From a virus: a stretch of 21,130 nt of DNA. The translations under genes and the position numbers were made by a program. The notes under the pieces were generated by a model, which ran no database searches, was not told the DNA's origin, and worked only from the letters and a program-made list of their open reading frames with translations. The stretch lies in the IMG/VR virus record IMGVR_UViG_3300027668_000129, positions 1 to 21,130 of that record. One strand, written 5' to 3'. Of the stretch, positions 1,574 to 18,549 are shown one piece after another. Every line of letters begins with the position of its first letter. Within the stretch, counting starts at the first letter, position 1.

Positions 1574-1579
1574 TGTATA

Positions 1580-1587
1580 TATTTATG
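1580..1587 (-). promoter_or_regulatory. Late-promoter-like box CATAAATA
   Basis: On the minus strand the octamer CATAAATA (7 of 8 with the T4 late consensus TATAAATA) lies six bases before the ATG at 1573, in the 15-base gap after the stop of the PKD-domain gene. No Shine-Dalgarno sequence is present. Confidence 0.5.
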
Positions 1588-1588
1588 A

Positions 1589-3871
1589 CTAGAATAAAGA
1601 TAGACTACTAAATAAGGTATTCCTTATTAGTATGTCATATATTTTGTCATCTCCCTCGAGACTGCTTAAAGGAGTATCAAAACTTAATGTGTTAAGAGGA
1701 TTTGTAAAGTCAATTAGACTACCCATAATAGTATTATCGTACGCAGCAGACAAACTGTAGAAATTATAAAATTTATTTACAGTTGTGATATCATAAGTAG
1801 TAGGGAGAACTAAAGGCCATCCCCAAGCTGCACCACCACTTATGCCTGGATTAGTCACGTCTGTACTATAATTACTAAGTTTGTACGTCCCAGTGGGACC
1901 GGCACTTAGAGCAGATAGAGGCTGAAACGTATTTAACCGTGTAAAAGTGCCACTAAATTTTTCATATGCTACTATATCGGTACCAGCTGTTACTACATAT
2001 GTTATTGTATCTAACTCACTTCCTAAGTTTTTACCATATGTAATTTTTGTAGTGTGACCTTTAGGATTATAATTTTCGTCAAATTTATTTTTGGCACCTC
2101 TAAATTTATTGTACTTGGTACTAAGAATCCCGACAATCCGCTTTATTAAATTAGGTTGTAATAATCGTGTTCTATCATATACAAGGCCTTCTTCATTTAC
2201 CATATCAGCCAAATTAAGAAGAGTGTTAGTGTCGCAATAATCTAAATCATTGTTGTTTGCTACAAAATTAAAAATATTTTCATAAAGCTTTTTACCTAGA
2301 ACTTCATAATTACTACTAAGATTGCCAAATACAGAACCTATAAAATCTGAAAAGAATATATTTTTGTCTAATAATATTTCCTGAAAACGCAAATCTTTTA
2401 TAGTGCTTTCAAAATCAAAATCCTCGTTTTGTTTATATAGGGAATAATAATCCTTTGGATAGCATGTAAAAGCAGCACTTCCTGTAAGGGTTGATAGAGT
2501 TGTTTGTAAAGATGATGGGTTGCCGCAGTATTGGCACTTAGTGCTTAATGCTATAAAGGTTGAACTGCTTGAAAGATTATCGTTAAAAGTTAAGACGCCT
2601 CTGTACCAAAAGTTAGTATCAGTAACAGTTGAAAGCGTATCATTTAGGCTTGATATTGTGTAGTACTGTGCATTAACGGATGTGCCACTTAGGCCTCCTG
2701 ACAGTACCTCAAAAATAGGATTACCAGCAGAGAGAGACTTAGCAACAGCACCATTCCACGCTTTAGGTGATAATATAAATGGGATGCCCAGTCCCTTATA
2801 TTGGATAGGGTTTATTTTAAAGGAACTTACATCATCGGTAGATTGAGTACCCATACCATTAGAGGTAATTTCTATAGCACTTAGGGAATTTCCATTTAAT
2901 GGTGCGCCGGCAAATGTACATTTACCATGTCCAGTATATAAATTACCTATAAAGGGGACAGCTAAATCCGCAGAAAAAGTAACAGTTAAATTATTTAAAA
3001 AATTCTGATTTTTGTATTTATTTTGGCCTCTAGAAAATATGTTACTTCTATCTTTAAAAAGAGAAACATTAAAGGAGGAGACATGTGAACCTGTAGAATC
3101 TTGATCTTCTGTTTTAAACCAAATTAATTTAGTTCCGGAGCTACCTGCTAAAACAGAAGATCCATGACTACTTGCGCATTTTACTATGGTGTTTGCTGAA
3201 AGTGTAGAATCAAAGCTACTAAGCCTTACGTATATATTCTCAGCCGATAAAGATATTCTCTTTAATTCTACATATTCATATGCTGACAAGTTAGGTAGCC
3301 AATTTTTTTCAGCAAACGTGTAGTATTTTTTTAGGTAATTAAATTTATTCTCATTAAGATTAAAATAATTAAGTACATCTATTCCTGATAAGCTAAAAAA
3401 TATGTCTTGAAATTGTTGGTAAAAAGGAGTCTGAGAATTTATAATAATGCATTGAAAGGCGCCTGGGCATAATTCAAAATTGTCGCTATTAGTGTCACAC
3501 CCTCCTCTCTCTTTAAATGGAGATGCAGTTCCTATGGTAAAGGTATTATCAATATAATCTTCAATCGTAACATCTGTGCTGTAAGAGGCTAGTACTGCAT
3601 TATTATTACAATCACGGAGTATTAGCTTAACATTATATTGCCCTGGGTATTCATACGCATGCGTACTGGTAAGATGGTGACCAAAAGTACCGTCGCCAAA
3701 ATCAAATGTAGCCTCTGTTGTATTTATATTTAGAGATTGTTCAGAATTTCTATTCGGAATTCTAGCTTTAAAGGTTAGCGGAGTTATAGAAAGATTATAA
3801 GAAGACAGAACCGCCTCGTTTTTATAATCTACAACATCAAAAAGAGCAAAATCTATTTGTATATTACTCAT
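1589..3871 (-). CDS. PKD-domain baseplate/virion structural protein
   Basis: A 760-residue protein. Residues about 30-105 look like a PKD (immunoglobulin-like) domain: FDFGDGT at 56-62, then HAYEYPGQY at 71-79 and a strand ending LILRD. This fold usually mediates protein or carbohydrate contact at the surface. A Cys-containing stretch follows (CDTNSDNFELC near residue 125), and a CQYC pair lies in the middle. The body is Ser/Leu/Thr-rich with many short LSA/LSS motifs, suggesting beta structure. The last third, with a segment LADMVNEEGLVYDR, is probably a conserved wedge-type domain. The ATG overlaps the end of the gp6-like gene by eight bases (GATGAGTAA), so translation is likely coupled, and no TAAATA box is present. 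Probably a large baseplate wedge or fibre-attachment protein; exact role unknown. Confidence 0.8.
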   Translation of the reverse strand: MSNIQIDFALFDVVDYKNEAVLSSYNLSITPLTFKARIPNRNSEQSLNINTTEATFDFGDGTFGHHLTSTHAYEYPGQYNVKLILRDCNNNAVLASYSTDVTIEDYIDNTFTIGTASPFKERGGCDTNSDNFELCPGAFQCIIINSQTPFYQQFQDIFFSLSGIDVLNYFNLNENKFNYLKKYYTFAEKNWLPNLSAYEYVELKRISLSAENIYVRLSSFDSTLSANTIVKCASSHGSSVLAGSSGTKLIWFKTEDQDSTGSHVSSFNVSLFKDRSNIFSRGQNKYKNQNFLNNLTVTFSADLAVPFIGNLYTGHGKCTFAGAPLNGNSLSAIEITSNGMGTQSTDDVSSFKINPIQYKGLGIPFILSPKAWNGAVAKSLSAGNPIFEVLSGGLSGTSVNAQYYTISSLNDTLSTVTDTNFWYRGVLTFNDNLSSSSTFIALSTKCQYCGNPSSLQTTLSTLTGSAAFTCYPKDYYSLYKQNEDFDFESTIKDLRFQEILLDKNIFFSDFIGSVFGNLSSNYEVLGKKLYENIFNFVANNNDLDYCDTNTLLNLADMVNEEGLVYDRTRLLQPNLIKRIVGILSTKYNKFRGAKNKFDENYNPKGHTTKITYGKNLGSELDTITYVVTAGTDIVAYEKFSGTFTRLNTFQPLSALSAGPTGTYKLSNYSTDVTNPGISGGAAWGWPLVLPTTYDITTVNKFYNFYSLSAAYDNTIMGSLIDFTNPLNTLSFDTPLSSLEGDDKIYDILIRNTLFSSLSLF

Positions 3872-5699
3872 CTATTACTTCAATGCGGTTGCTAACAGAT
3901 AGTGGAGAGTATAGGTATGGGAATTTAAAATAAGGTAATCGAGAATCTTGATTCATTAGCTGTATATCGCTATCCGGGTATAGGGGGTTAAATGTTAAAA
4001 ATGATATACCTTCAAATATTAATCCCTCGTCACTATTTTGTGTGTAAATTCTTTTTACACCCTCTAAAGACAATATGTTACTCGTCAGGTCTGTTAATTT
4101 TATATTTTGCCCTAGGGTATTATTTTTAGGTAGAAAAAAGTCAGTAATAGTCGATACCGTTCTACTTTTAAGTGTCGATTTGTTAATTTTATTTTTAGTT
4201 TCTCTTACAATAACTAGCTTTGTTTGGTCGAGAACAGCCATAGACAATTCGCTTGTATTACCAAACCCTAGCCCAAATCCCATATATATGGGATCTCTTG
4301 GCACAACGTTATTTGATACCATTTTCTTATCCTTAGCCATATCAACGATAAGATTTTTAAAGGAATTAGACAGATAAGGAGGATACGACTCGTCTTCTGT
4401 TATAACAAACTTTGGAACTACAAAAAGATTAATATTGTTAAAATCACAAGCGTCAGCAAAGTTTACTTGATTAATAATTGCACGATTAACTTTATTTGGA
4501 TCTACGCATATGTCATAAAAATATTGAATATATCCATTTATATACTCTTCATTGCCTACAGCCACCACCCCGTCAATAATATTAGACAGATTCTTAGTTA
4601 TAAAGCCTTCATAATCTTGTTCAGTAACTAACCTTAATTGCGAAGCGTAAATTTTAGGGGCATTTGTTTTTATCTGATCAACTGTTTCTTCATCTGTTAA
4701 AGTAGAAGAGTTGGTTGGATTATTAAAAGTAAGCAGAGAACTATTTCCGCCAGTAATAAAGGTAGTTTCTTCTTTATTTAAAAATGTATCATTGAAGATT
4801 AATCTTTGTCTGGAAGAATCATATGTGAATAATTTATTTCCATTAATTGCATTTTTACTTATTATACCTTTGTCGCTATCAGACAAAATATAATTTACTG
4901 CAACGATATCACCCTGAGTTAATTTGTTACCAAATATTCCATTACCAAATTTTATGTCAAAATGACCGTTTTCATTTAACCGTTTTTCAAATACTCGTTC
5001 AGTAGCTTTAGTTAAAAATATACTATCTACTTCTGAATATTCATAGTATAGCCCATTGTCTACTTCTTTTACATAAACACTTATTGTGTTATCTGCAATA
5101 AACCTATCATCATTTTTATCTACAATGTTGTCGACAATGATTGGAAGCACTTCAAATTTTTCTCCCTGAGCTGTATAATCAGGATATTCACCTACAGTCC
5201 CTTGATACAAAATAACTTGGTCATTAAGGGAGTCAACTATTTCCTTAGTTGTTGTAGTCTTATCAAAAGAAAAATGATTTATAAAATTATACTGTATGTT
5301 ATCAACTAAAAAATAACTATATTTTTGAATAGTATAGTTAGCTGCAGCCATATCACCTGATGCAACTGCATTAATAGGTACAATAGACGTCTGTTTACCT
5401 GTAGGCTTATACCCTATAAGCTTAACAATTCTATTCATATTTTCATATAAAGTAGCTTGATTAAAATTAACTTCCGCGGCTGTATTGTTTAGATAGAATA
5501 GAAGTACGTGGTAGGAGTAAGCAATTATATCAATTATTGCTGCTAGGTTACTTCCATCAAAATTTTGATCTGTAAATTTTTCATTTTCGTTTAATCTATC
5601 GACGATGTAATCCTTTAAGCTAACAGCATCAAAAGCTACATATGCATTTTGAGGTAGATTAAAATCTAAGAAATCATTCGTTGTATTGTTTTTAAGCAT
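3864..5699 (-). CDS. 6: Baseplate wedge protein, T4 gp6-like (baseplate J family)
   Basis: A 611-residue protein close in length to T4 gp6 (660). Residues 28-100 carry the family signature: a short helix, FTDQNFDGSNLAAIIDIIAY at 42-61, FYLNN at 68-72, then a segment ending KLIGYKPTG. In T4-like phages this N-terminal region precedes the beta-rich body. T4 gp6 dimers form the ring that joins neighbouring baseplate wedges and rearranges during sheath contraction. A region rich in FGNGIFGN-type turns lies near residue 250, as in baseplate J proteins. The start is two bases after the gp25-like stop (TAATTATG), so the genes are probably translationally coupled, consistent with their joint role in the wedge. 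The 3' end overlaps the PKD-domain gene by eight bases. Confidence 0.88.
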   Translation of the reverse strand: MLKNNTTNDFLDFNLPQNAYVAFDAVSLKDYIVDRLNENEKFTDQNFDGSNLAAIIDIIAYSYHVLLFYLNNTAAEVNFNQATLYENMNRIVKLIGYKPTGKQTSIVPINAVASGDMAAANYTIQKYSYFLVDNIQYNFINHFSFDKTTTTKEIVDSLNDQVILYQGTVGEYPDYTAQGEKFEVLPIIVDNIVDKNDDRFIADNTISVYVKEVDNGLYYEYSEVDSIFLTKATERVFEKRLNENGHFDIKFGNGIFGNKLTQGDIVAVNYILSDSDKGIISKNAINGNKLFTYDSSRQRLIFNDTFLNKEETTFITGGNSSLLTFNNPTNSSTLTDEETVDQIKTNAPKIYASQLRLVTEQDYEGFITKNLSNIIDGVVAVGNEEYINGYIQYFYDICVDPNKVNRAIINQVNFADACDFNNINLFVVPKFVITEDESYPPYLSNSFKNLIVDMAKDKKMVSNNVVPRDPIYMGFGLGFGNTSELSMAVLDQTKLVIVRETKNKINKSTLKSRTVSTITDFFLPKNNTLGQNIKLTDLTSNILSLEGVKRIYTQNSDEGLIFEGISFLTFNPLYPDSDIQLMNQDSRLPYFKFPYLYSPLSVSNRIEVIDE

Positions 5700-5701
5700 A
5701 A

Positions 5702-6190
5702 TTAAACTATGGTATATCCGCTACTATTTAATATTGATTTAAGTGATAGCCCTGTTATATCTAGCGAAGGGACGTTAATTTGAAGAGAAATTCTGTATTC
5801 TTGATTATCCACATCAGCCTTAACTCCTATCTTTTCTAACGATATTCTAGGTTCTAATGCAGGTAACTTATCCTTTATGTCAGATCTAATTTCAAACGAA
5901 GTAAATTCACTTACAGGCTCAAAAAGATATCTCCTTAAATCTATTCCGAAACGAGGACTTAGTATTTTTTGACCCGGGGAAGTCAGCATAATATTAACAA
6001 TACTATTTTTAACGGCCTCTAAGTCATACAGCCCTTGAACGTCTCTTATTTCTACTGTTCTATTGAGCTGCTTGTTATATGATACTCGGTTTACTATATC
6101 TAAAAATAAATCCTTATATAGATAACCTTGACCTAGAGCTGCATCATCCGCTTTATCTACGGAGATATCTGATATTTTTATAAGAGCCAT
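5702..6190 (-). CDS. 25: Baseplate wedge protein, T4 gp25-like
   Basis: A 162-residue protein; T4 gp25 is 132 residues. It shows the core family pattern: an N-terminal segment with VKNSIVNIML, SPGQKILSPRFG at 71-82, RRYLFEP at 86-92, and the EPRI motif at 113-116 followed by alternating strands. Gp25 sits in the inner baseplate, contacts gp6 and gp53, and helps start sheath polymerisation; related proteins occur in type VI secretion baseplates. The gene is first in a left-going baseplate run (gp25, gp6, PKD protein, next structural gene) and diverges from a plus-strand gene over a 59-base gap. An ATTAAATA box lies six bases before the ATG, with no Shine-Dalgarno sequence. Confidence 0.92.
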   Translation of the reverse strand: MALIKISDISVDKADDAALGQGYLYKDLFLDIVNRVSYNKQLNRTVEIRDVQGLYDLEAVKNSIVNIMLTSPGQKILSPRFGIDLRRYLFEPVSEFTSFEIRSDIKDKLPALEPRISLEKIGVKADVDNQEYRISLQINVPSLDITGLSLKSILNSSGYTIV

Positions 6191-6196
6191 TTATAA

Positions 6197-6204
6197 TATT
6201 TAAT
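6197..6204 (-). promoter_or_regulatory. Late-promoter-like box ATTAAATA before gp25-like gene
   Basis: The minus-strand octamer ATTAAATA keeps the TAAATA core and lies six bases before the ATG at 6190. It heads the left-going wedge gene run inside a 59-base divergent intergenic region. Confidence 0.45.
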
Positions 6205-6233
6205 ACTGCAGTGGTAAATAGAGTTTAAGGAAC

Positions 6234-6239
6234 TATAAT
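6234..6239 (+). promoter_or_regulatory. Possible -10 element TATAAT
   Basis: A perfect TATAAT hexamer lies ten bases before the ATG at 6250 in the divergent gap. I see no good -35 hexamer at 16-18 bases, so this may be a weak or activator-dependent promoter, or chance in AT-rich sequence. Confidence 0.3.
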
Positions 6240-6249
6240 ATAATTAAGT

Positions 6250-6516
6250 ATGCAAATTAAAGGCCGGGCTGATGTTAATGTTGAAGTAAGTACTAAAGAT
6301 CTAGTATCGGCTCTAAAAAGCGAAGTTTATAAAGGGTTAGATATTCCAAATCCAAAACAAGGCCGAGTATTTGTTAAAGATAATAAATGGGTGCAGCAGT
6401 TTATCGCGCACACAACACATTCTTTTGAACTCGAAGAGGATCTAGGGCCTGCTATGGAAGAGGATGTTGAAGTGTTTGAAGCATTTCATACATTAGCAGA
6501 ATTTCTTAGAGATTAA
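6250..6516 (+). CDS. Hypothetical protein, 88 aa
   Basis: I do not recognise this small acidic protein. It starts MQIKGRADVNVEV, has a middle basic segment with a PNPKQGRVFVKDNKWVQQF motif, and ends with an acidic helical stretch (EEDLGPAMEEDVEVFEAF). No signal peptide, membrane segment or cysteine is present. It opens a plus-strand run of three genes that points away from the gp25-like gene. An AAGGA lies about 18 bases before the ATG, too far for normal ribosome binding; a TATAAT hexamer is closer. Its position within a tail module suggests a small phage structural or regulatory protein, but no function can be assigned. Confidence 0.7.
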   Translation: MQIKGRADVNVEVSTKDLVSALKSEVYKGLDIPNPKQGRVFVKDNKWVQQFIAHTTHSFELEEDLGPAMEEDVEVFEAFHTLAEFLRD

Positions 6517-6548
6517 GTTACATATCCGTGTGATTATCTGCAGGGTTG

Positions 6549-6556
6549 TATAAATA
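6549..6556 (+). promoter_or_regulatory. Exact T4-late consensus box TATAAATA
   Basis: A perfect TATAAATA octamer on the plus strand ends five bases before the ATG at 6562. It is the best copy of the box shared by many genes here and shows that the element follows gene orientation. T4 late transcription uses this sequence at -10 with gp55 sigma and gp33 co-activator. Confidence 0.6.
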
Positions 6557-6561
6557 ATATT

Positions 6562-7194
6562 ATGGCAGGTAAAAAGTTTGTTAAGTTATACGAATCTTAT
6601 ATGCGGAGATACGAGCGAGGTGGATTCCTCGTAGGTGACGTTTTTAAGTTTAACGATAATTTTAAAAGCTCAGACGGATATAAAGGACTTGGTTCGAGTA
6701 CAAAAGATCTACTCGATCAAATGATTGATTCTGGCCTTCATATTAGAATTGTAGGAATTAAAGATACATCACCCTCAAGATACCCAGCAAACCCGGATAC
6801 CTCTTCTTTAAATGTTGTACTAAATATTGCTTTAGATACAGGCGGAGGCAGATTTTCCCATTATTGTTCCATTCCCGGTGATTTAGGCGAGGCTGTAGAA
6901 TATTACCCTAATCTTCTTCCAATCCCGGATGTTATGAAACGTCCGGATAATGTAGTTATTAAGCCAGAGGAATTTGTAGAAGATGAAGAAATGCTTGCTA
7001 ATAGGGCTGATCGTGGCGGTACAGAGCCTCATAAACTAACCCCAACAGAGAGAACGCTACCTAAAAAGAATACAGTAATTCCGTCTGATCCTGTAACTCC
7101 TTCACAGGCTGTAACTTCTTATACTAATCAATATCTTAGTGATCTTACACCCGCTAGTTACACCGGCGTAGCTAAAAAGTTACAACATAAATAA
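6562..7194 (+). CDS. Hypothetical protein, 210 aa
   Basis: Not assigned to a family. The N-terminus is basic and aromatic (KFVKLYESYMRRYERGG, residues 5-21) and leads into GDVFKFNDNFKS. The middle (about 45-125) looks like a compact mixed fold with an IRIVGIKD strand and a GGGRFSHYCSIPGDLGE loop. The C-terminal 70 residues are Pro/Thr-rich and probably flexible. A LYE at 9-11 fits the loose [LI]-x-E pattern of T4 prohead-protease sites, which is weak evidence for a virion role. The start has an exact TATAAATA box five bases upstream. The next gene begins one base after this stop, so the two are likely made together. Confidence 0.72.
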   Translation: MAGKKFVKLYESYMRRYERGGFLVGDVFKFNDNFKSSDGYKGLGSSTKDLLDQMIDSGLHIRIVGIKDTSPSRYPANPDTSSLNVVLNIALDTGGGRFSHYCSIPGDLGEAVEYYPNLLPIPDVMKRPDNVVIKPEEFVEDEEMLANRADRGGTEPHKLTPTERTLPKKNTVIPSDPVTPSQAVTSYTNQYLSDLTPASYTGVAKKLQHK

Positions 7195-7195
7195 A

Positions 7196-7762: not shown

Positions 7763-7765
7763 GTG

Positions 7766-8692
7766 TTAATCTAAGGCATTTTCTAAATTTACTAAGCATG
7801 CAAATGCGTTGATTTCCTTATCAACAACAAACGCGCTCTTATAGAGATGATCTGCGATAATAGCAATCATCTCTTTCTTTTTGATATCCTCTACATTCGC
7901 ATTGTAGATAAAATCTAGATAGTTGCAAAGCAATGTATCGTAATCACCTTGAAACCTATCTTCGTTCTCAATTAGATATCTTCTAGCATCTAAGCATTTT
8001 TTACCAGCTATTTTTTTGTAAATTGTTTCTAATAGTTCGTTATCAGTATTAATACTTGTAATACAAAGCTCTGAATCAATAACGTTCTTTTGAAGCTCAT
8101 TGATTGTTTTCCTAAGATCAGGAAAAGTCTTCTTAACTAACTGTACAAACTTCTTCTTTTGCTCTTCCGGGACTTTTACATTCTCCTGTTGTAAAATACT
8201 ATAACATCTCTTAACTGCTAAGTCTAAAACAGGCTTGATAGTTAGCGACTGACATCTAGACTGGACAGCTGGAATAATTTTATGCTTGTAGTTTGCAGTA
8301 ATAATAAACCTGCAATACTTAGCATACGACTCCATTGTATTGCGAAGCGCAGCTTGAGCTTGAGTTGTTAGCCCGTCACCTTCATCCAGTATTATGACTT
8401 TTACCTTCCCATCAAAAGACTTAGTTTGAGCAAAATTAGTGATATTGTGTCGAATAGTATCAATACCAGACTCATCAGAAGCATTAATATAAAGGTAATT
8501 ACACTTAAGAATGTCGTTAACAATAACTCTAGCAAGGGTGGTTTTACCAGTACCAGGATTACCAACAAAAAGAAGATTAGGTATTTCATTTTCAAATTCT
8601 TTAACTACACGTAATGTCCCTTCATCTAAGATAATATCATCTAGCGTCTGCGGTCGATATTTCTCTACCCAAATTTTATCAAAATCTACCAT
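7766..8692 (-). CDS. 44: Sliding-clamp loader large subunit, T4 gp44 / RFC-small type AAA+ ATPase
   Basis: A 308-residue AAA+ ATPase close to T4 gp44 (319). It opens with the RFC-type WVEKYRP motif (8-14), then Walker A GNPGTGKT (44-51), Walker B VIILDE (99-104) followed by GDGL, sensor 1 TAN (132-134), and the SRC arginine-finger motif (145-147). The C-terminal third is the helical collar region. In T4, gp44 and gp62 form the 4:1 complex that loads the gp45 clamp on DNA using ATP; no gp62 or gp45 gene is in this window. Walker B is followed by Gly-Asp rather than the Ala-Asp of DEAD-type RFC subunits. The start is two bases after the dUTPase stop (TAATTATG), so the pair is probably co-translated from a promoter at 9125-9152. 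Confidence 0.93.
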   Translation of the reverse strand: MVDFDKIWVEKYRPQTLDDIILDEGTLRVVKEFENEIPNLLFVGNPGTGKTTLARVIVNDILKCNYLYINASDESGIDTIRHNITNFAQTKSFDGKVKVIILDEGDGLTTQAQAALRNTMESYAKYCRFIITANYKHKIIPAVQSRCQSLTIKPVLDLAVKRCYSILQQENVKVPEEQKKKFVQLVKKTFPDLRKTINELQKNVIDSELCITSINTDNELLETIYKKIAGKKCLDARRYLIENEDRFQGDYDTLLCNYLDFIYNANVEDIKKKEMIAIIADHLYKSAFVVDKEINAFACLVNLENALD

Positions 8693-8694
8693 AA

Positions 8695-9117
8695 TTACTT
8701 ACCTGAAGAACCAAAGCCCTTAGCACCTCTCTCTGTTTCTTGAATGTCACCCTCTTGTACTTCCACTACATGATTAGTATATACTACAAATTGCGCAATT
8801 CTATCACCAGCTTTTACTTTATAATCTTTATCAGTAAGATTGTATAGCTTCACACCGGCATCGCCTCTATAGCCACTATCGATAATACCAGGATGAGGTA
8901 AAATTCCATGCTTAAAGCCTAAGCCTGATCTTCCCTCTATTTTGACCCAAAATTGTGAATCAATGTGCGCAAATTCTAATCCCACATCCACCACAGCAGA
9001 TCCACGTGCTGGGATGACTTTATCCACAACTGAGGTCACATCTAGTCCAGTGTCGTCCTTATGGGTTTTCCCTGGGAGCACTGCGCTCTCCCTAGTTTTC
9101 TTAAACTTTAATAACAT
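8695..9117 (-). CDS. dut: dUTP diphosphatase (trimeric dUTPase)
   Basis: A 140-residue protein of normal length for the trimeric dUTPase family, with all five motifs in order: DTGLDVTS (22-29), GRSGLGFKHGI (62-72), GIIDSGYRGD (77-86), AGDRIAQFVV (103-112) and RGAKGFGSSG (130-139). It hydrolyses dUTP to dUMP and pyrophosphate, keeping uracil out of phage DNA and supplying dTMP synthesis. The catalytic Asp and the aromatic Tyr of motif 3 and the C-terminal Phe-Gly arm are present, so the enzyme looks active. It heads a two-gene unit with the clamp loader and has a sigma70-like promoter directly upstream instead of a TAAATA box, suggesting earlier expression than the surrounding tail genes. Confidence 0.96.
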   Translation of the reverse strand: MLLKFKKTRESAVLPGKTHKDDTGLDVTSVVDKVIPARGSAVVDVGLEFAHIDSQFWVKIEGRSGLGFKHGILPHPGIIDSGYRGDAGVKLYNLTDKDYKVKAGDRIAQFVVYTNHVVEVQEGDIQETERGAKGFGSSGK

Positions 9118-9124
9118 ATACCAT

Positions 9125-9152
9125 ATAATAGCAGGCTATATAAAAATATCAA
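9125..9152 (-). promoter_or_regulatory. Sigma70-like promoter TTGATA-N16-TATTAT
   Basis: On the minus strand TTGATA (9147-9152, 5 of 6 with -35 consensus) and TATTAT (9125-9130, 5 of 6 with -10 consensus) are separated by 16 bases. The -10 ends seven bases before the dUTPase ATG, so the transcript would start at or beside the start codon. It would drive dUTPase and clamp loader. Confidence 0.45.
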
Positions 9153-9158
9153 CTAGAG

Positions 9159-9166
9159 ATTAAATA
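9159..9166 (+). promoter_or_regulatory. TAAATA box before plus-strand 148-aa gene
   Basis: The plus-strand octamer ATTAAATA lies eight bases before the ATG at 9175, a looser spacing than the five or six bases seen at other genes, so it is a weaker candidate. Confidence 0.35.
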
Positions 9167-9174: not shown

Positions 9175-9621
9175 ATGGCTAACGATGAGCTAGATGAAGC
9201 AGTAAATGATATTATTACTCAAATAAAGAGTAGTAAAGAAACTGTACAGGAGAAGCAAGATGATATAAAAATAGATAGAGAAGGCTTAGAGGAGTTTATT
9301 ATGCAAAATTCTGGAAAGCTTGTTACTAAATCTTTGGACATTGTAGATAATGTTAATGACTATATTGCCTCTGCTCCAGAAAATAGAGATGTAGCAGCAT
9401 TAGCAGAATTAATTAAGGCAGCGTCCACCGCTATTGATACATTACAAAAGCTTCATACCGGGAATAAGAGGAATGAAACTCAAAAAGAGGTTAAGAAAAT
9501 GGATATTGAGTCAAAAGAGCGGATAAGTTTCGTAGACAATCAAACCAGAGTTCTTCTTTCTCGAGAAGATATAATGCATGCTCTTGTGGACAAAAATGAT
9601 GATGATATTATTGATGTTTAG
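9175..9621 (+). CDS. Possible terminase small subunit (T4 gp16-like)
   Basis: A 148-residue, acidic, almost fully helical protein. The pattern resembles T4 gp16 and its relatives: a charged variable N-terminus, a central helical pair (about residues 50-95: SLDIVDNVNDYIASAPENRD, then a long Ala/Leu helix ending LQKLH), a Lys-rich linker, and a C-terminal acidic segment. T4 gp16 (164 residues) has a matching helix, an R/D turn, and a helix ending in LHK. Small terminase forms a ring that regulates DNA packaging by the gp17 motor. Neither the large terminase nor a portal is in this window, so context does not confirm the call. The frame is set by the ATG at 9175; an earlier ATG at 9168 is out of frame. 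Its stop overlaps the opposing 406-residue gene's stop. Confidence 0.45.
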   Translation: MANDELDEAVNDIITQIKSSKETVQEKQDDIKIDREGLEEFIMQNSGKLVTKSLDIVDNVNDYIASAPENRDVAALAELIKAASTAIDTLQKLHTGNKRNETQKEVKKMDIESKERISFVDNQTRVLLSREDIMHALVDKNDDDIIDV

Positions 9622-12193: not shown

Positions 12194-12194
12194 G

Positions 12195-12605
12195 TTAAAA
12201 GTGTCTATCTTTAAATACAGTCGACTGGGTTATTTGTTGATATATAAGCCCTCTTTGGTCAGGCAAGATGTATTTTAATTGTTGACCGCCCTTAGCGTAA
12301 AAATTATTACCAATCACAGTTTTATTTAAGAGGTAAATAATCCACCAACTATCAATGTCTTCATATATATTAAATGAGGTCGTGGTTAATGGCTCTCGGT
12401 TAGACTTAACTTGATACATGTCTAACATATGTGGTTGTATATTATCCGGGAATTCAATCTTGTTTAAAATATTATAAAAGTAGAATTGTTTACCGCCTGT
12501 GCCTTGGGTAAATAATTTAAATATCCGTTCATACCGCGTAAGTGGCAAATTTCTTAATGCCTCTACATCGTCTTGATATTTTCCTGTCTTTCCTGTTAAG
12601 CTCAT
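12195..12605 (-). CDS. 53: Baseplate wedge protein, T4 gp53-like
   Basis: A 136-residue protein, shorter than T4 gp53 (196). The diagnostic part is an aromatic stretch, KQFYFYNILNKIEFPDNI at about 39-56, followed by TSFNIYEDIDSWWIIYLLNKT (about 75-95). This resembles the W-rich segment of gp53, where a D-x-PWW-type motif precedes a hydrophobic helix. Gp53 joins gp25 and gp6 in the inner wedge and links wedges to one another. It sits between the gp48-like and gp27-like genes, with an 11-base gap after the former. The gap holds a degenerate AAAAATAAA element rather than a clean TAAATA box. The short length means the C-terminal part of T4 gp53 may be missing. Confidence 0.7.
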   Translation of the reverse strand: MSLTGKTGKYQDDVEALRNLPLTRYERIFKLFTQGTGGKQFYFYNILNKIEFPDNIQPHMLDMYQVKSNREPLTTTSFNIYEDIDSWWIIYLLNKTVIGNNFYAKGGQQLKYILPDQRGLIYQQITQSTVFKDRHF

Positions 12606-12616
12606 GATCTTTATTT

Positions 12617-13825
12617 TTAAAAGTCCGCCACCCCGGTGAAGGTCGAATTGGGAAGATCATCCGGATTAAAACTCGCTTCGGGAAACGGTTTCATTGGAGT
12701 AGGTCGCTCATCAGGGTAGAGCTCGTAATACCTTTCTGTACCGAAAGCCGGCACGGCGTTAGGATTTCCCTCTAATTTTTCCGCTAGCCCACGTGTATCT
12801 TCACCCGCCGCAAAGGCATCAAAATCTCCACCTCCAGCATTATCTAATTCATCCATAAAGTTAGCAGCCTCAATAGTTAAAGAAGTAAATTCAAAATTGC
12901 AATCGTAGGCCTCAGGGTATATTGTATTGTTTATTTTTCTCCGTGTACCCAACAACCCTATACTAAAATTGCTTAAAAACGCCCACTCAATATATCTTAA
13001 TCCTGGCACTTCTACATGATATATTGCTGGGAAAGTTATTGCAACAGGGCCCGTGCGCCGCGGCCTATTTATAGCAGTAAAATCTCTAATAAATTTTGTA
13101 TTTCTATCCATATCTCCCTCTTCGATAGTATTTGCCAAGACAAAATTAACTGCTAATGGGGCGTCAGTCATGTCATACTGATACATCTTAGGCGTCTCTA
13201 TGTAGGAGCCAGGAGCCCGGGCTCCTGGTTCTTTTGGTTGGAACGTACCCATGGCCCCCAGTGCTGACCGCGCCTTCTGCGCCATAGTTGCATTATCCTC
13301 TGCCTTGTCCCAACCCGATTTTGCATTGTTAAAAACATCTTTCACTTCGTTAAAGCCTGCTGCACTACCAAATCCGATTTCTTCAACGATAGGTGTTGCC
13401 ATATCCATCAACTTAGCGCCCATAAACTTAGCACCACGCTGACTAATGCTTGAAAAGGTATCATCATACGCATTATTAAACCCTCTTATATTATCACCAA
13501 AGAAGGGAAAGTTATAACTTTCGATAAGTTTATTTGACTGGTATAAATTTTTATAAAAATCCATCGCATTAAATGGAGTCTTAGGGGGAGGTTTCTTAAC
13601 ACCAATTGCCTTGCCGGCAGCAGTACCGGCAAGAGCTGTCTGCCCGGAATGCACAGCACCCGTACCAACTGCTGTCCCGAGATTAATATACCCAGCAATA
13701 AATTGTTGTAGCTGTGAATGTTCCAGTTCAAATGCTCTAACGAACGCACATGGCGCCTCATCTCTATAACCAGAATTTGTTGGTATAGAAGTCCAAGCGT
13801 AGTCTTTAACAATATTAACCGCCAT
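12617..13825 (-). CDS. 48: Baseplate tube-cap protein, T4 gp48-like (or gp54-like)
   Basis: A 402-residue protein; T4 gp48 is 364. The strongest evidence is the C-terminal half: PAIYHVEVPGLRYIEWAF, then LLGTRRKINN, then PEAYDCNFEFTSLTIEAANF, the order of conserved elements in gp48/gp54 tube initiators. Upstream, DFYKNLYQSNKLIESYNFPFF at about 89-109 matches the aromatic FPYF region of those proteins. Between them lies a Gly/Ala-rich stretch with no clear counterpart, and the C-terminus ends in a Pro-rich tail. Gp48 and gp54 cap the hub and start tube polymerisation. A CATAAATA box lies five bases before the ATG. The 49-base gap to the tape-measure gene contains a duplicated sequence. Confidence 0.75.
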   Translation of the reverse strand: MAVNIVKDYAWTSIPTNSGYRDEAPCAFVRAFELEHSQLQQFIAGYINLGTAVGTGAVHSGQTALAGTAAGKAIGVKKPPPKTPFNAMDFYKNLYQSNKLIESYNFPFFGDNIRGFNNAYDDTFSSISQRGAKFMGAKLMDMATPIVEEIGFGSAAGFNEVKDVFNNAKSGWDKAEDNATMAQKARSALGAMGTFQPKEPGARAPGSYIETPKMYQYDMTDAPLAVNFVLANTIEEGDMDRNTKFIRDFTAINRPRRTGPVAITFPAIYHVEVPGLRYIEWAFLSNFSIGLLGTRRKINNTIYPEAYDCNFEFTSLTIEAANFMDELDNAGGGDFDAFAAGEDTRGLAEKLEGNPNAVPAFGTERYYELYPDERPTPMKPFPEASFNPDDLPNSTFTGVADF

Positions 13826-13830
13826 ATTAA

Positions 13831-13838
13831 TATTTATG
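13831..13838 (-). promoter_or_regulatory. Late-promoter-like box CATAAATA
   Basis: The minus-strand octamer CATAAATA (7 of 8 with TATAAATA) ends exactly five bases before the ATG at 13825, with TTAAT between. No Shine-Dalgarno sequence is visible. Confidence 0.55.
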
Positions 13839-13850
13839 ACACTACACTGT

Positions 13851-13864
13851 GAACGTTAAGACTA
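13851..13864. repeat. Copy 1 of a 14-base direct repeat (intergenic)
   Basis: GAACGTTAAGACTA is identical to 13895-13908 and lies 44 bases from it. This copy is in the gap between the tape-measure stop and the gp48-like start. Read in the matching frame it gives ISLNVHSVVS then stop, similar to the tape-measure C-terminus YSLNVPPVLAS. Confidence 0.75.
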
Positions 13865-13874
13865 ATATTCTTCA

Positions 13875-15773
13875 TTACGACGCGAGTACCGGTGGAACGT
13901 TAAGACTATAAGGTGCATCATGTGCGTCTCCTCTGCTATCTCGACCCACTCCTGGATTTGATATTGCCACATCTCCACCCCTACTTGAGCTACCGGGCAT
14001 TGGAACAGGTACTATATTAGTACTTCCACCCCCACCGCTTTTTGCTAATAGGCCTCTAGTTAGATCTACTAGTGTTTTTAAATACTCGTTCGAGCGATTT
14101 ATTGCACCAAGTTGATATCCAGCAAACGCGGAGCCGGCTCTTAGAAAATCACTTATAGGGCCTCCTGCCTTAAACCCGAATAGGGTATCCTGAGAATTAA
14201 AAGAAACAGGTGGCATTCCAGGACGCAGAACAAAATCATTATTTTCCCGGCCAATACCGGCATTCCAGGCACTGGCAGGTCCCCAACCACCAACGCCGCC
14301 ACTCCCCGTTGGACGGTTGAACCTCCTGTCGCTCTTCTTGTCGAACTCTTTTATAATCCCCTTATATTCTAGCATTGCCTTTGCTCTGTCTGCGGCTCTA
14401 TCTTTAATAAACTTATTATATGCCTCCTCTGCCTTCATCTCCACCCTTATATCCCCCCCAAATGCGTTCCTATCGCTACCGGTAATTGCTTTCCTACGGG
14501 TCACTCTGGTTTTCGATCCCTTCGCGAAAGCCAAATTTCGCGCTTCCTCAGCCGCTATAGAATCTCCATAAATAAAGGGCTGGTCTACGTATCTAGAACC
14601 AAATCCTTTCATGAATTTCTTCTTAATATGCTCCTCCCACAGGTTGCGAAAGGCTTCTATACCGCCCGGGGTACCTTCGCCTCCTCCAAACTTACCCCCA
14701 GGACCATATAGCTCCATCAACTCTTCATCAGTCCTCGTATCTACTCGATTGATCCTCGCCATGACCTCCCTCAGGGGATCCCCAGCATCTCGGCCAATCC
14801 GCCTCTCCGTTAGCATGCGACTATTCCGGATGGCATTCCCCATCTCCGTAACCTCATCTATTGATTCCATCGGAGACTTGGTCTTGATATTCTTGAAGAT
14901 GTTTACCGTCGCTCCCAGAGTCTCAAGAATACCGGCCCCGTGACCGGGAATCAGTTTTTCCAGCGCTCGATCTTCCGATTTCCGCTTGTTTTCCGTCAGC
15001 TTCTGCTGTATTTCTTCAGCTGCCAATTTTCTCTCGGCGCGTGCCTTCTCTTCACCCTCCAGTTTTTCAGCCTCCTTCCGCTTCTTCGCGAGTTCATCCC
15101 GGTCTTTCTTATTGAGTCTTTCCGTCGCGGCTCTATTATCCTTCGCGAGTTCATTGGCGTCGGTGATATTTTGATGTGCGTCTTTGGCTATAGGAATAAG
15201 CGCGCGAATTCTATCTATAGCTACCCCAATGGCCAATGCTATAGCGGCAATTTTCAGTATAAAAGGACCAAACGCCGTTATCAAACTGGTAATAAACGGT
15301 CTAAGCATTGCTATTAATTGCATAAACCAGCCCTTTTTCTTGGGCACTTTTTTGGTATCTGTTGCTCCTGCAATAGCTTTTTTAGCAGGGGTAATTTTTG
15401 TCTTAGGCTTTTTATCTATTTTAGGCTCTTTCTTTTTCTTGATCTCGTAATATACTTCCCAAAATACTTTAGCTTCTGTTTTTGCTTTATCTTTATCAAG
15501 CTTGTGCAGAGCTTTACTTTGAACATCTAAAAATATTTTAGCTTCTTGTGCAGCCTTCTTCTTAGGGTCCTGTTTTTTAGGCCCGGATGCAGCTTTCTCC
15601 TTATAATAAACATCCCAAAAAATCTTGGATTCGTTTTTTAATCGGAGTATTTCCCAGGGATATAATCTCGCTCTCCCTTGTTTAATTATATCTCTTCCGC
15701 GCTTTTCTTTACCAAAGCTCTTATCTAGCTTTTCTTCAACTTTTGCTGCATCTTTATTCGGTTTAGGTGGCAC
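13875..15773 (-). CDS. Tail tape-measure protein candidate
   Basis: A 632-residue basic protein starting with GTG; no in-frame ATG lies upstream before the previous gene. The order is: Lys-rich head with three similar E-x-K-[IV]-F segments (48-57, 77-86, 100-109); a Trp-led hydrophobic stretch with two helical membrane-type parts (149-186); a long charged coiled-coil-like region (about 200-275); a Gly- and Arg-rich middle; a DTLFGFKAGGPI motif at 529-540, common in phage tail proteins; and a Gly/Ser/Pro-rich tail. The architecture and position, after two chaperone-position genes and before gp48, fit a tape measure such as T4 gp29 (590 residues). At about 1.5 angstroms per residue it would set a tail near 95 nm. 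The central DNA (about 14.3-15.2 kb) is much richer in GC than the flanks. An AATAAATA box lies five bases before the start. Confidence 0.7.
   Translation of the reverse strand: MPPKPNKDAAKVEEKLDKSFGKEKRGRDIIKQGRARLYPWEILRLKNESKIFWDVYYKEKAASGPKKQDPKKKAAQEAKIFLDVQSKALHKLDKDKAKTEAKVFWEVYYEIKKKKEPKIDKKPKTKITPAKKAIAGATDTKKVPKKKGWFMQLIAMLRPFITSLITAFGPFILKIAAIALAIGVAIDRIRALIPIAKDAHQNITDANELAKDNRAATERLNKKDRDELAKKRKEAEKLEGEEKARAERKLAAEEIQQKLTENKRKSEDRALEKLIPGHGAGILETLGATVNIFKNIKTKSPMESIDEVTEMGNAIRNSRMLTERRIGRDAGDPLREVMARINRVDTRTDEELMELYGPGGKFGGGEGTPGGIEAFRNLWEEHIKKKFMKGFGSRYVDQPFIYGDSIAAEEARNLAFAKGSKTRVTRRKAITGSDRNAFGGDIRVEMKAEEAYNKFIKDRAADRAKAMLEYKGIIKEFDKKSDRRFNRPTGSGGVGGWGPASAWNAGIGRENNDFVLRPGMPPVSFNSQDTLFGFKAGGPISDFLRAGSAFAGYQLGAINRSNEYLKTLVDLTRGLLAKSGGGGSTNIVPVPMPGSSSRGGDVAISNPGVGRDSRGDAHDAPYSLNVPPVLAS
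13895..13908. repeat. Copy 2 of a 14-base direct repeat (tape-measure 3' end)
   Basis: This copy of GAACGTTAAGACTA is inside the tape-measure reading frame and encodes its last SLNV segment. The match with the intergenic copy suggests a partial tandem duplication. Confidence 0.75.
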
Positions 15774-15778
15774 ACTTA

Positions 15779-15786
15779 TATTTATT
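15779..15786 (-). promoter_or_regulatory. Late-promoter-like box AATAAATA overlapping upstream stop
   Basis: The minus-strand octamer AATAAATA ends five bases before the GTG at 15773. Its TAA is also the stop codon of the gp26-like gene (GAA-TAA-ATA). Confidence 0.5.
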
Positions 15787-16522
15787 CTGTGCTAGTTGAA
15801 TCAAAAAATAAAGCATCAATTGTAACTGTATCATCCCCTACTGTAAGTAAGCTTGTATTGTATCGGTTAACAGCTTCGATATAGTCGGAAATATCTGTAT
15901 ATACAGCAAGAGGCAGTTTTTCTACAAGGTTTATTCTTTCCGGTATTTTAATCTCAGACATGTTAACAGATTCACCGTCTATTTCTAACCCCTGAATATA
16001 CTTTACAATCTCAATCAAGTATAACATCGCAACTTCCTCTTTAAAGTTACCATCTTCCCCTTTTAAATCTGATTCCATTTTTGCTAACAAAGCATTTTCC
16101 TCTTGCAATGTAGGAGCCGCTACTGTTATTGTTAGCTGTTTATAGTTAATAGTTTTTTTGTCCTTTAATTGTAATTTGGTCTTCTCTATATTGTCCAATA
16201 CGGCTTGTAGGTCAGTCGTTACACCCTCAGTAGTATACTTATTACCAAGTGCTTCAATTCTCATAGCAATCGTGAAAGGTATCCTATCAAATATTTTTAG
16301 ATCTGTTAACTCTGAATTATCTGTAATTATGTTGTTTAAGGTTTGACTAAAATTTAGAGATCCTTTTACTCCGTCTAGGACAGATGAAATTAAATCTTTT
16401 TGTTGCTTTAGTGTAAGCGGCTTTACTTTGACTTTTTTATTTTTGGATGGTACAAATACTTCTAAACTTTTACTATTAAGCTTATCTAGTTTAGAAATAA
16501 AACTTGACACTTGGTTACTCAT
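15782..16522 (-). CDS. 26: T4 gp26-like baseplate hub / tail-assembly protein
   Basis: A 246-residue protein. The N-terminal half matches the T4 gp26 baseplate family pattern: VFVPSKNKKVKVKPLTLKQQ at 22-41, then an acidic helix, a TLNNIITDN helix, a short turn with a Leu-x-Ile-Phe-Asp motif, and a FTIAMRIEALGN helix. The C-terminal half (about 110-246) is extra and holds an ERINLVEKLPLAVY segment. The Cys pair often seen in related proteins is absent. T4 gp26 is a hub assembly component; in many phages genes in this position, before the tape measure, act as its chaperones. It begins eight bases after the preceding gene's stop, with an AGTAAATA box five bases before the ATG. The frame is also open back into the end of the previous gene, so a frameshifted fusion is possible. 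Confidence 0.68.
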   Translation of the reverse strand: MSNQVSSFISKLDKLNSKSLEVFVPSKNKKVKVKPLTLKQQKDLISSVLDGVKGSLNFSQTLNNIITDNSELTDLKIFDRIPFTIAMRIEALGNKYTTEGVTTDLQAVLDNIEKTKLQLKDKKTINYKQLTITVAAPTLQEENALLAKMESDLKGEDGNFKEEVAMLYLIEIVKYIQGLEIDGESVNMSEIKIPERINLVEKLPLAVYTDISDYIEAVNRYNTSLLTVGDDTVTIDALFFDSTSTE

Positions 16523-16527
16523 AATGA

Positions 16528-16535
16528 TATTTACT
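16528..16535 (-). promoter_or_regulatory. TAAATA box overlapping upstream stop
   Basis: The minus-strand octamer AGTAAATA ends five bases before the ATG at 16522, with TCATT between. Its TAA is the stop codon of the preceding gene (CAG-TAA-ATA). Confidence 0.5.
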
Positions 16536-17325
16536 GAATAGTTTGCTTTTTCAAGGATTCGTTTTCTTTATCTACCTCGTCTTTGTATAAATTATAATAA
16601 TCTTCAATTTCTACAAAAGTACAATTTATTAGATAATTTATATCAGGCATCCTGCTACATAAAATAAAGAGCATTTGCCTATAATCGTTTGCGGATATAC
16701 TACTAAACAAATTAACTATAAAATTAGAAATATCTGCTGATAGCACATCTAAATTAATTTCTGGTATATCTAAATCTTTTCTTCCTTCAAATACCTTTAA
16801 AGAAAAGTAATTTTTATTTTGCTGAACAAACTGAACTAGATGACGATATAAGTTTTTCGGGAGCGTGTTAATAATCTGCGTATACTCCTGGGCTGTAACT
16901 TCACTTAGTATGATTTTTTCATCTTCTATTTCTATACTTTGGATAAGAGAAAAAATAAAGTCCGAATCACCACAATTGAATTGCGTTGGGTAATTTAATT
17001 GGTATTTAGCATTATCAACTTCAATTATTTTTGACCTATCCTCTATGTCTCCTATATTTTGTATAATAAGGTCTAAATTTACGTGTATGGGACCTTTGTT
17101 AGAAGTAAGAGATATCTCATCTCCCATGCACTGCTGCCGTAGCATAACAAGCGATATAAATTTCTCAACGATGTTTAGATTCTTAGTACAAATGAATGTT
17201 TCTAAAAACCCAAGAGCATCACCAACGGCAGAGTCACTATATAGAGAAAATTTTCTTAAATCTTTAAATAGTATTTCCTCTGCGACAACTTCCTTTTTAT
17301 TAGGAAGTACAAAAGACAGTTGCAT
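16531..17325 (-). CDS. Tail-assembly/hub protein in chaperone position, 264 aa
   Basis: An acidic 264-residue protein without a firm family match. The N-terminus, MQLSFVLPNKKEVVAEEI, then FKDLRKFSLY, a helix, and MLRQQCMGDEISL at about 62-74, has the layout of T4 gp26/gp51-type hub assembly proteins and of tail chaperones: a strand pair, then helices and an R-x-x-C-x-G turn. The rest is helical, with a QFVQQNKNYFSLKVFEG segment near residue 170. It stands between the second tube-like gene and the gp26-like gene, just ahead of the tape measure. The last residues include an AAAAAG run from which a -1 shift would lead into the next gene. Its start has a TATAATTA element five bases upstream. It could alternatively be a gp51-type hub catalyst. 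Confidence 0.62.
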   Translation of the reverse strand: MQLSFVLPNKKEVVAEEILFKDLRKFSLYSDSAVGDALGFLETFICTKNLNIVEKFISLVMLRQQCMGDEISLTSNKGPIHVNLDLIIQNIGDIEDRSKIIEVDNAKYQLNYPTQFNCGDSDFIFSLIQSIEIEDEKIILSEVTAQEYTQIINTLPKNLYRHLVQFVQQNKNYFSLKVFEGRKDLDIPEINLDVLSADISNFIVNLFSSISANDYRQMLFILCSRMPDINYLINCTFVEIEDYYNLYKDEVDKENESLKKQTIQ

Positions 17326-17330
17326 ATGAT

Positions 17331-17338
17331 TAATTATA
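17331..17338 (-). promoter_or_regulatory. Variant late-promoter-like box TATAATTA
   Basis: The minus-strand octamer TATAATTA matches 7 of 8 positions of TATAAATA and ends five bases before the ATG at 17325, with ATCAT between. Its internal TAA is the stop codon of the second tube-like gene. Confidence 0.4.
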
Positions 17339-17936
17339 GCTGCCTATAATTTTTACAACCAAAAGTAACTGTTTTAACTATAAATTCACTGTCAGCATAA
17401 CTTAGAGTGCCTCCGCCTTCGACGTTAGTAGGAAACGCCTTGTCAAATATGAAGCCTTTACGTAACTTTCCTTGATTATTGTACTGCTTTAAAGTAATGT
17501 TACATTTTAATTGTTGGTTAATTAGTCCGTCTATGCCAATCGCTATTAACCACGGTGTAAAAAAGTCATGGCATATATCTTGATCAGTCTCAATAAAGTT
17601 AATAGTTAACTGTCTAGTTAAAAAGCTTTCTCTTTGTGTAACCCCATAACCAGGTAAAAATCCTCCTCTATTTGCTTGCCCAACTTCCTGAAAGGAAGTT
17701 TGTTCGCCAGGGATTGTAATGGTTTGAGCTACTAGTACACTGCCATTCTTAGTATAGTCGTCTGGAAACGTCCTTGCTCTCCAATCTTCACCTGCCTTGT
17801 TTAATGCTGCATTAATCTGCCCTTTAATTGCATTACTAGTCTCGAAACGTACCTTCCATAAGAACGGATGTGGAATAAAGTACTTTTCATCAGTACTAAA
17901 TGATTGTAAAAAATCTCTTACCGGGGTGCCAGGCAT
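17334..17936 (-). CDS. Second tail-tube-like protein (gp19/gp54-type fold)
   Basis: A 200-residue protein. The central pattern, ITIPGEQTSFQEVGQANRGG, FLPGYGV, then LTINFIETDQDICHDFF, follows the tube-protein layout seen in the next gene (LPG loop, tube strand, [FY]-x-[ED]-x-[ED] strand, helix after the second acidic cluster). The C-terminal part holds two further strands. The N-terminus has an aromatic KYFIPHPFLWKVRF segment. Overall similarity to the upstream tube protein is low by eye. It may be a distal tube or terminator protein, a baseplate-proximal tube initiator such as a gp54-like protein, or a diverged duplicate of gp19. A CCTAAATA box lies five bases before the ATG, and a hairpin lies between the two tube genes. 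Confidence 0.68.
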   Translation of the reverse strand: MPGTPVRDFLQSFSTDEKYFIPHPFLWKVRFETSNAIKGQINAALNKAGEDWRARTFPDDYTKNGSVLVAQTITIPGEQTSFQEVGQANRGGFLPGYGVTQRESFLTRQLTINFIETDQDICHDFFTPWLIAIGIDGLINQQLKCNITLKQYNNQGKLRKGFIFDKAFPTNVEGGGTLSYADSEFIVKTVTFGCKNYRQL

Positions 17937-17941
17937 ACTAT

Positions 17942-17949
17942 TATTTAGG
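17942..17949 (-). promoter_or_regulatory. Late-promoter-like box CCTAAATA
   Basis: The minus-strand octamer CCTAAATA ends five bases before the ATG at 17936, with ATAGT between, in a 48-base intergenic region just downstream of a hairpin. Confidence 0.5.
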
Positions 17950-17970
17950 GGTTAACCTAGGGGGCTAACC
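17950..17970. other. Intergenic hairpin between tube genes
   Basis: GGTTAACC (17950-17957) and GGCTAACC (17963-17970) pair with one A-C mismatch over a five-base loop. On the plus strand it is followed by TTTTT (17971-17975), like an intrinsic terminator, but no plus-strand gene precedes it. On the transcribed minus strand the A-run precedes the stem, so it is more likely an mRNA-stability or processing element or a read-through limiter after the tube gene. Confidence 0.45.
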
Positions 17971-17984
17971 TTTTTCCCAGCAAA

Positions 17985-18536
17985 TTAACTGAAGTCTCTA
18001 TAATAGTGATAAGCGAATGTAACAGGAAAGTTAACAACCTCACCAGTACCTTCAGCTATGGTATAAGAAACATCACCGATTTCTCTAAGTGAAGCGCCCA
18101 CTAGCTCAATATTTCTGACATCGTTTAATTGCTTGTCGATCTGTACCAAGTTAATTATTGACTCGTTACCTGGCATACCGTATTGGCCTAACGAATTATC
18201 ATTATTCCAAACAGCTCTAGAAGCTGCTTCCATTTTAGATCTAAGATCGCAATCTTCATCATGGTAGAATTCTATAGAATATGCAGCAGCATTATTATAT
18301 GTTGCTCTTCCTGGGAGCTGAAACTCTTGACCAAAGTAGCTAACATTTTTATTTTCTATAGTCCTGCCCGGTAAAGCTGCTGTTCTTGCATAAACTAAAT
18401 CACTTTCCCCGTCAAATCGAATTATAGATCCAGGTGTAGGCCCTGTTATATCGATTTGTCTAACTCGGAATAAGAAATCTCGTGAAAATTGCTTTTCTGC
18501 CGCTCTTGTAAAGAAGTCTTGAATTGTTGTTGCCAT
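17985..18536 (-). CDS. 19: Tail tube protein, T4 gp19-like
   Basis: A 183-residue protein; T4 gp19 is 163. Features: a helical N-terminus (TTIQDFFTRAAEKQFSRDF), the strand DFLFRVRQID, a YARTAALPGRTIENKNVSYF loop region (about 49-68), GQEFQLPGRATYN, then AYSIEFYHDEDCDLRSKME (about 86-104), the strand plus acidic helix seen in gp19-type tubes, and a final strand set ending FAYHYYRDFS. Gp19 hexamers stack to form the inner tube through which DNA passes. It follows the sheath gene by 24 bases, the usual sheath-tube order, with an AATAAATA box five bases before the ATG and no Shine-Dalgarno sequence. Confidence 0.9.
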   Translation of the reverse strand: MATTIQDFFTRAAEKQFSRDFLFRVRQIDITGPTPGSIIRFDGESDLVYARTAALPGRTIENKNVSYFGQEFQLPGRATYNNAAAYSIEFYHDEDCDLRSKMEAASRAVWNNDNSLGQYGMPGNESIINLVQIDKQLNDVRNIELVGASLREIGDVSYTIAEGTGEVVNFPVTFAYHYYRDFS

Positions 18537-18541
18537 ATGAT

Positions 18542-18549
18542 TATTTATT
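18542..18549 (-). promoter_or_regulatory. Late-promoter-like box AATAAATA before tube gene
   Basis: The minus-strand octamer AATAAATA (7 of 8 with TATAAATA) ends five bases before the ATG at 18536, with ATCAT between. It lies in the 24-base gap after the sheath gene. Confidence 0.55.

Follow-up and report, generated by a model that had tools for sequence, protein, structure and literature searches.

The stretch of DNA analysed here, hereafter the window, comprises 21,130 nucleotides (nt) of a virus (IMG/VR virus record IMGVR_UViG_3300027668_000129, positions 1 to 21,130), in which an octamer ending in TAAATA precedes start codons on both strands at a fixed distance of five or six nt. Judging from their sequence and placement, these boxes are very probably (about 85%) T4-type late promoters that depend on gp55, from which transcription would start on the start codon or 1-3 nt before it. 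With the box placed at the start codon, most structural genes are expected to be expressed as leaderless messenger RNAs (mRNAs) without a Shine-Dalgarno (SD) site. The original prediction, made on the window alone, had preferred this same reading, in which T4-type late promoters yield late mRNAs that are leaderless or nearly so. It passes every sequence-level test and is still a prediction. The window (36% G+C) represents part of the genome of a myovirus of the T4 superfamily, and the clade to which it belongs is a large, uncultured and widespread group of T4-like marine phages, with at least 600 matches to gp23 in IMG/VR.

Boxes before the start codons of the window

We found the box exactly five nt before six starts. 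On the plus strand, TATAAATA (6549..6556) precedes the ATG at 6562, whose A is the predicted first transcribed base (+1). On the minus strand, CATAAATA (13831..13838) precedes the ATG at 13825, AATAAATA precedes both the GTG at 15773 (15779..15786) and the ATG of the tail tube gene at 18536 (18542..18549), AGTAAATA (16528..16535) precedes the ATG at 16522, and CCTAAATA (17942..17949) the ATG at 17936. The variant TATAATTA (17331..17338, minus strand) lies at the same distance from the ATG at 17325. Two other minus-strand boxes are six nt away, CATAAATA (1580..1587) from the ATG at 1573 and ATTAAATA (6197..6204) from the ATG of gp25 at 6190. The original prediction had listed these nine starts with the same distances, and had noted a T just before the start codon in all seven five-nt cases; all of this was confirmed. 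Three weaker cases were absent from its list: a weak variant, TAAAAATA, six nt before the ATG at 12605 (12612..12619, minus strand) and ATTAAATA, which contains TTAAATA, eight nt before the ATG at 9175 (9159..9166, plus strand), both uncertain, and a TATAAT five nt before the start at 6250.

The 60 nt upstream of 19 window starts contain TAAATA 12 times, six times at distance 5 and twice at distance 6. Dinucleotide shuffling, repeated 20,000 times, never put more than two at distance 5 or more than three at any single position. The pattern TAAATANNNNNRTG occurs seven times in the window, against 1.38 expected, and its seventh match (12315-12328), within an open reading frame (ORF), looks accidental. 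Six starts without a box (3871, 5699, 7196, 8692, 10838 and 12193) overlap or abut the preceding gene (gap -8 to +2). In three places the box also contains the upstream stop codon, as the TAA of TAAATA or TAATTA: 15779-15786 (stop of gene 15782-16522), 16528-16535 (gene 16531-17325) and 17331-17338 (gene 17334-17936). A box that doubles as stop codon leaves a standard gap of 8 nt, and a full late promoter thus fits between two genes.

Positional enrichment in relatives and control phages

For the relatives, a mechanical rule set each start at the first ATG or GTG of the ORF, so the enrichment is independent of any picking of starts to suit the box. Among 215 non-redundant starts from 41 loci with a related tube gene, TAAATA was at distance 5 in 72 and at distance 6 in 27, with one or two occurrences at any other position. 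The terminase-gene set (80 loci, 313 non-redundant starts) gave 115 at distance 5 and 49 at distance 6, over a background of 0.37 per position. This enrichment is decisive for the positional test that the original prediction had proposed.

The three largest contigs of the window clade (G021, G022 and G023, of 196.9, 170.9 and 154.6 kilobases (kb)) have 36 and 11, 36 and 17, and 29 and 13 boxes at distances 5 and 6, and a more distant contig (G019, 148.8 kb) shows the same positional pattern. SD motifs were found at only 4-9% of the starts in these four contigs. The 24 orthologues of the tube gene kept the box at 5 nt, even where the start codon had shifted relative to the conserved coding sequence. 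The distances of individual genes recur as well: the box of gp25 is also at 6 in G021 and G023, and that of gp18 is at 5 in both.

Most T4 boxes are 21-28 nt away from the start codon, and an SD motif precedes 56% of T4 genes (60% in the phage Mosig). We found no peak at 5 or 6 in Syn9, S-CAM9, Mosig (a lone box at 5), AG-345-F15, DLP6, B23, XG4 and phiM9, and RHph_I1_18 yielded a looser match at 5 but nothing at 6. An exception is the cultured pelagiphage HTVC008M, in which 11 genes carry the box at exactly 5 and none carries it at 6, and 46% of all its genes have SD motifs. The 11 starts are at record positions 6280, 7562, 11972, 18943, 19456, 31132, 49760, 75830 and 142360, and at 16007 and 18916 on the minus strand. 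Its 5-nt box genes include gp25, gp2, gp4, gp48, gp29, gp3 and one gp7-like gene, and a 146-kb relative (G024) has a similar mixed pattern. A CHASE2-guanylate/adenylate cyclase is common to the window clade and the HTVC008M group (L313:6048-8087, L064:11972-13807), and is boxed at 5 in HTVC008M.

The fixed spacing might be a mere by-product of tight gene packing in an A+T-rich genome, where a stop TAA followed by a short spacer makes TAAATA. The boxes that contain a stop codon in three window genes, and the frequency of the 8-nt gap among boxed genes, would fit such an origin. Yet longer gaps (10-200 nt) and the intervals between divergent genes hold most of the boxes, which already refutes it. 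Moreover, shuffles of the same upstream DNA fail to reproduce the spacing, and equally A+T-rich control phages show nothing at 5 or 6, except HTVC008M. We give this explanation almost no credence.

Box geometry and predicted transcription start

The first two bases of the T4 late box are at -13 and -12 (PMC2988020). Since the T4 box spans -13 to -6, with a gap of 5 nt +1 coincides with the A of ATG, where the start codon begins. The sixth base after the box, which is the +1 base in T4, is a purine for 82% of boxes in the leadered control phages. In the clade this base is usually a purine even at distances where it falls outside the start codon: in 75% of cases at distance 6, in 14/14 at distance 7 and in 8/10 at distance 8. 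The base before the start codon is a T in 78% of cases and a C in 16%. Bacterial RNA polymerase prefers a pyrimidine at -1, and the T before the start codon may well be the -1 pyrimidine of the initiation site. The core TAAATA is present and dominant in the clade box.

We propose that the host RNA polymerase with gp55, as inferred from T4, would read NNTAAATA at -13 to -6 and start the RNA at the purine six bases after the box, which at 5-nt spacing would be the A or G of ATG or GTG. Ribosomes would then initiate on the 5'-terminal start codon, and would reach overlapping or abutting downstream genes (gaps -4, -1, +1 and +2) through translational coupling. Early genes may follow the same design, with a sigma70-type TTGA-W...TATAAT whose +1 would again fall at the start codon.

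Two promoter classes follow gene function

We sorted the genes of the four long contigs by function and set aside those that overlapped or adjoined the preceding gene. A box at 5-8 nt precedes 35/44 uncoupled structural genes and 1/31 replication genes (Fisher p = 1.2e-11, the contigs being related and their genes not fully independent). Boxed genes occur on both strands. The early class was sought among 158 spaced starts without a box: 48 of them have a TATAAT that ends 5-8 nt upstream, and 41 a TTGA that ends 29-31 nt upstream, a signal first seen in G019. The TTGA...TATAAT of replication genes is predicted to be a sigma70-type promoter with its own +1 also at the start codon. This positioned early class is absent from T4 and HTVC008M. 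In the window, a promoter of this type (9125..9152, minus strand) precedes the dUTPase/gp44 pair, with TTGATA at 9152-9147 and TATTAT at 9130-9125, 7 nt before the ATG at 9117. Neither the early dUTPase gene (8695..9117, minus strand) nor the gene of the replication clamp loader gp44, 2 nt after it (7766..8692, minus strand), has a late box. Genes without either promoter mostly overlap or abut a neighbour (gaps -4, -1, +1 and +2), as expected under coupled translation.

The original prediction had offered an alternative, in which the box is a translation signal for a host that does not use SD pairing. On this view TAAATA would be an A/U-rich initiation site for the ribosome or S1, and transcription would start farther upstream. 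The near absence of SD motifs (4-9%) and the fixed spacing to the start codon agree with it. However, such a signal should serve both classes, yet the replication genes carry TTGA...TATAAT with sigma70 spacing and not the box, and coupled genes carry neither element. Besides, TAAATA is itself the box of T4 late promoters, and the clade has gp55. The two promoter classes are unrelated in sequence and share only their predicted start site, which favours leaderless mRNAs and disfavours a ribosome-binding motif. With early genes carrying another motif whose predicted +1 is at the start codon, the translation signal is unsupported, and we consider it very unlikely.

T4 late boxes resemble bacterial -10 elements and have the same location, and both classes imply leaderless transcripts. 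The boxes could also be -10 elements of leaderless genes read by the host sigma70 and not by gp55, both classes then being host promoters. Yet the late class has no -35 element: the 161 box genes show no TTGA peak at -33 to -35, whereas the peak is clear in the early class. The split between classes tracks structural versus replication function, and gp55 and gp45 are both present. We regard host promoters as a highly improbable explanation of the boxes. Two other promoter types were also considered. Bacteroidetes-type promoters (TAnnTTTG) gave no positional signal. An archaeal TATA box would lie ~26 nt from +1 (PMC5397173), and is excluded by the 5-nt position for a leaderless transcript.

Late transcription machinery

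The original prediction had proposed a search for gp55- and gp33-like genes, and its first half succeeded on whole related contigs. Both gp55 and the sliding clamp gp45 are encoded in G019, G021, G022 and G023, and in the two contigs tested, G021 and G023, gp55 matches the late sigma family phrog_234 with an E-value of ~1e-25. Besides gp55, G021 has a gene for a sigma70-family factor that comprises regions 1.2, 2, 3 and 4 (L305:10743-11906), and no such gene was found in G022, G023 or G019. Phage-encoded IF3 or bS21, as possible helpers, were not found in the window clade, and bS21 was present only in the HTVC008M-like G024.

Host clues

The contig G021 encodes an arginine transfer RNA, tRNA-Arg(TCT) (L305:19007-19082), which is 97% identical over 76 nt to that of one Kiritimatiellaceae genome. 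Identity is 94-96% to others of that order and at most 83% to the other non-Lentisphaerales Verrucomicrobiota tried. A PSCyt2/PSD1 and DUF1501 gene pair is present in G021 and G022 (L304:10761-13806, L322:1305-2507). The DUF1501/PSCyt2 pair is typical of bacteria of the Planctomycetes-Verrucomicrobia-Chlamydiae (PVC) group, and none of the isolate phages searched has DUF1501. The transfer-messenger RNA (tmRNA) of the phages is of the one-piece type. Together, the tRNA-Arg, the gene pair and the tmRNA, which come mainly from one contig, are moderate evidence for a PVC host. The tmRNA genes (L304:15777-16193, L322:4252-4661) encode unusually long tags of 21 and 32 residues, ending in ALAA/LLAA. 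The terminase gene gave no clue to the host, having no relative among sequenced genome contigs.

We also scanned 241 Verrucomicrobiota genomes for TATAATN{6,7}ATG, and some had a large excess over a backwards control. The excess concerned G238, G206, G118, G060 and G078 (e.g., 41/40 versus 0/0), and a reading of the gene starts in a few contigs gave no explanation. A leaderless host lineage was rejected as a candidate, since the gene starts read in five of the genomes show SD sites and no -10 peak.

Evidence against leaderless late transcription

Several points weigh against gp55-dependent promoters with leaderless transcripts. The window itself lacks gp55, being a fragment. The second half of the proposed search gave only weak matches, and gp33 was not found convincingly in the clade contigs (E-values of 0.3 or worse, no PHROG support). 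Relative to T4, the box is relaxed at -13 and -12, to N and A/T (A in 51% and 60%, respectively), and the 5' ends of the transcripts are predicted from promoter geometry. The candidate host genomes examined have SD motifs at ~40% of starts and lack a -10 peak 5-8 nt before them, and thus the phage would not merely be imitating such a host. Kiritimatiellales, the probable host order of one member, uses SD sites and has no leaderless signature in the regions examined, so that efficient leaderless translation there is putative.

A broader claim would be that nearly all transcription units of the clade, early and late, are leaderless although the probable PVC hosts (e.g., Kiritimatiellales) translate mainly through SD leaders. 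We hold this as tentative and rather doubtful. If true, the phage would have to redirect the ribosomes of its host to start codons at the 5' terminus, and gp23 alone would keep a structured, SD-bearing leader.

The leader of the major capsid gene

The major capsid gene gp23 of the clade phages is leadered, an exception to the predicted leaderless design. The ~80 nt upstream of it contain two covarying hairpins followed by an SD-like AAAGGAAA. This leader RNA was found upstream of gp23 at L312:12380-12464 (G021), at L328:14895-14979 (G023) and in L393-L463, with one copy per genome in G021-G023. Eight of its 11 pairs have changed on both sides, with 56 such cells versus 20.3 in shuffles, and 89% of the cells are paired versus at most 52% when slid. 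It had no match in Rfam, and a simple pattern found none in the control phages searched. Hence, it looks like a new structured RNA.

Genes of the window

The T4-like core genes of the window are gp6, gp25, gp18, gp19 and gp44, and those of the relatives include gp13, gp15, gp17, gp20, gp21, gp23, gp32, gp41, gp43, gp46, gp47, gp55 and uvsW/X/Y. The structural genes identified in the window lie on the minus strand: the tail sheath gene gp18 (18561..21130), whose start is outside the window, the gp19-like tail tube gene (17985..18536), a gp26-like baseplate hub gene (15782..16522), and the baseplate wedge genes gp25 (5702..6190) and gp6 (3864..5699). The latter has no box and is coupled to gp25, which it follows by 2 nt. 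We found no close isolate among 50,697 phage records: the best matches of the sheath and terminase have ~33-43% identity over part or most of the protein, and the tube gene has a sole isolate match, with 28% identity.

Comparison with known systems

The late transcription of T4 is a textbook case of regulation, and T4 mRNAs are assumed to have SD leaders. In the parts of the literature that we covered, every description of T4 late promoters and of their cyanophage counterparts places them before leadered genes (PMC2988020, PMC2984593), and leaderless late transcription was not reported for any T4-type phage. The clade box would thus be a new form of T4 late promoter that acts at the same time as a leaderless-gene promoter, the transcript starts being predicted. 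This apparent merger of promoter and start codon changes the way in which genes, start codons and expression of the clade should be predicted. The clade also provides a natural setting in which to study the competition of leaderless mRNAs for ribosomes in infected cells.

The clade resembles T4, where late promoters (TATAAATA) work with gp55, gp33 and gp45, in the core TAAATA at -11 to -6, the lack of a -35 element, the A/T-rich spacer, the purine six bases after the box, the structural genes on both strands, and the presence of gp55 and gp45. It differs in the relaxed -13/-12, and in having the box 5-6 nt from the start without SD, whereas in T4 it is 21-28 nt away with an SD leader. The NATAAATA late promoters of marine cyanophages (S-PM2, Syn9; PMC2984593) have the same motif and gene class as those of the clade. 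However, the exact NATAAATA boxes of Syn9, S-CAM9, B23 and AG-345-F15 lie 18-45 nt from the start, with none at 5 or 6.

We know of no gp55-type promoter in the Thermus phage phiYS40. Like the prediction for the clade, most of its middle and late mRNAs are leaderless (PMC3594737), and its host phylum makes wide use of leaderless genes (PMC12340547). In Deinococcus-Thermus, -10 elements adjoin ORFs at a fixed spacing of a few base pairs and give leaderless mRNAs (PMC12340547), as predicted in the clade. Yet these are cellular sigma-A promoters, whereas the clade has two classes, one of which is a phage late promoter.

An earlier search for late promoters in pelagimyophages gave no satisfactory result (PMC7029224). 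Among these comparisons, HTVC008M shares with the clade the exact 5-nt boxes and gp55, and has a gp33 annotation as well. It differs in its mixed strategy, since the genes for its sheath, tube, portal and capsid have leaders and its early genes are not leaderless. With 11 genes boxed at 5 nt and a cultured host, Pelagibacter HTCC1062, HTVC008M makes the prediction testable now.

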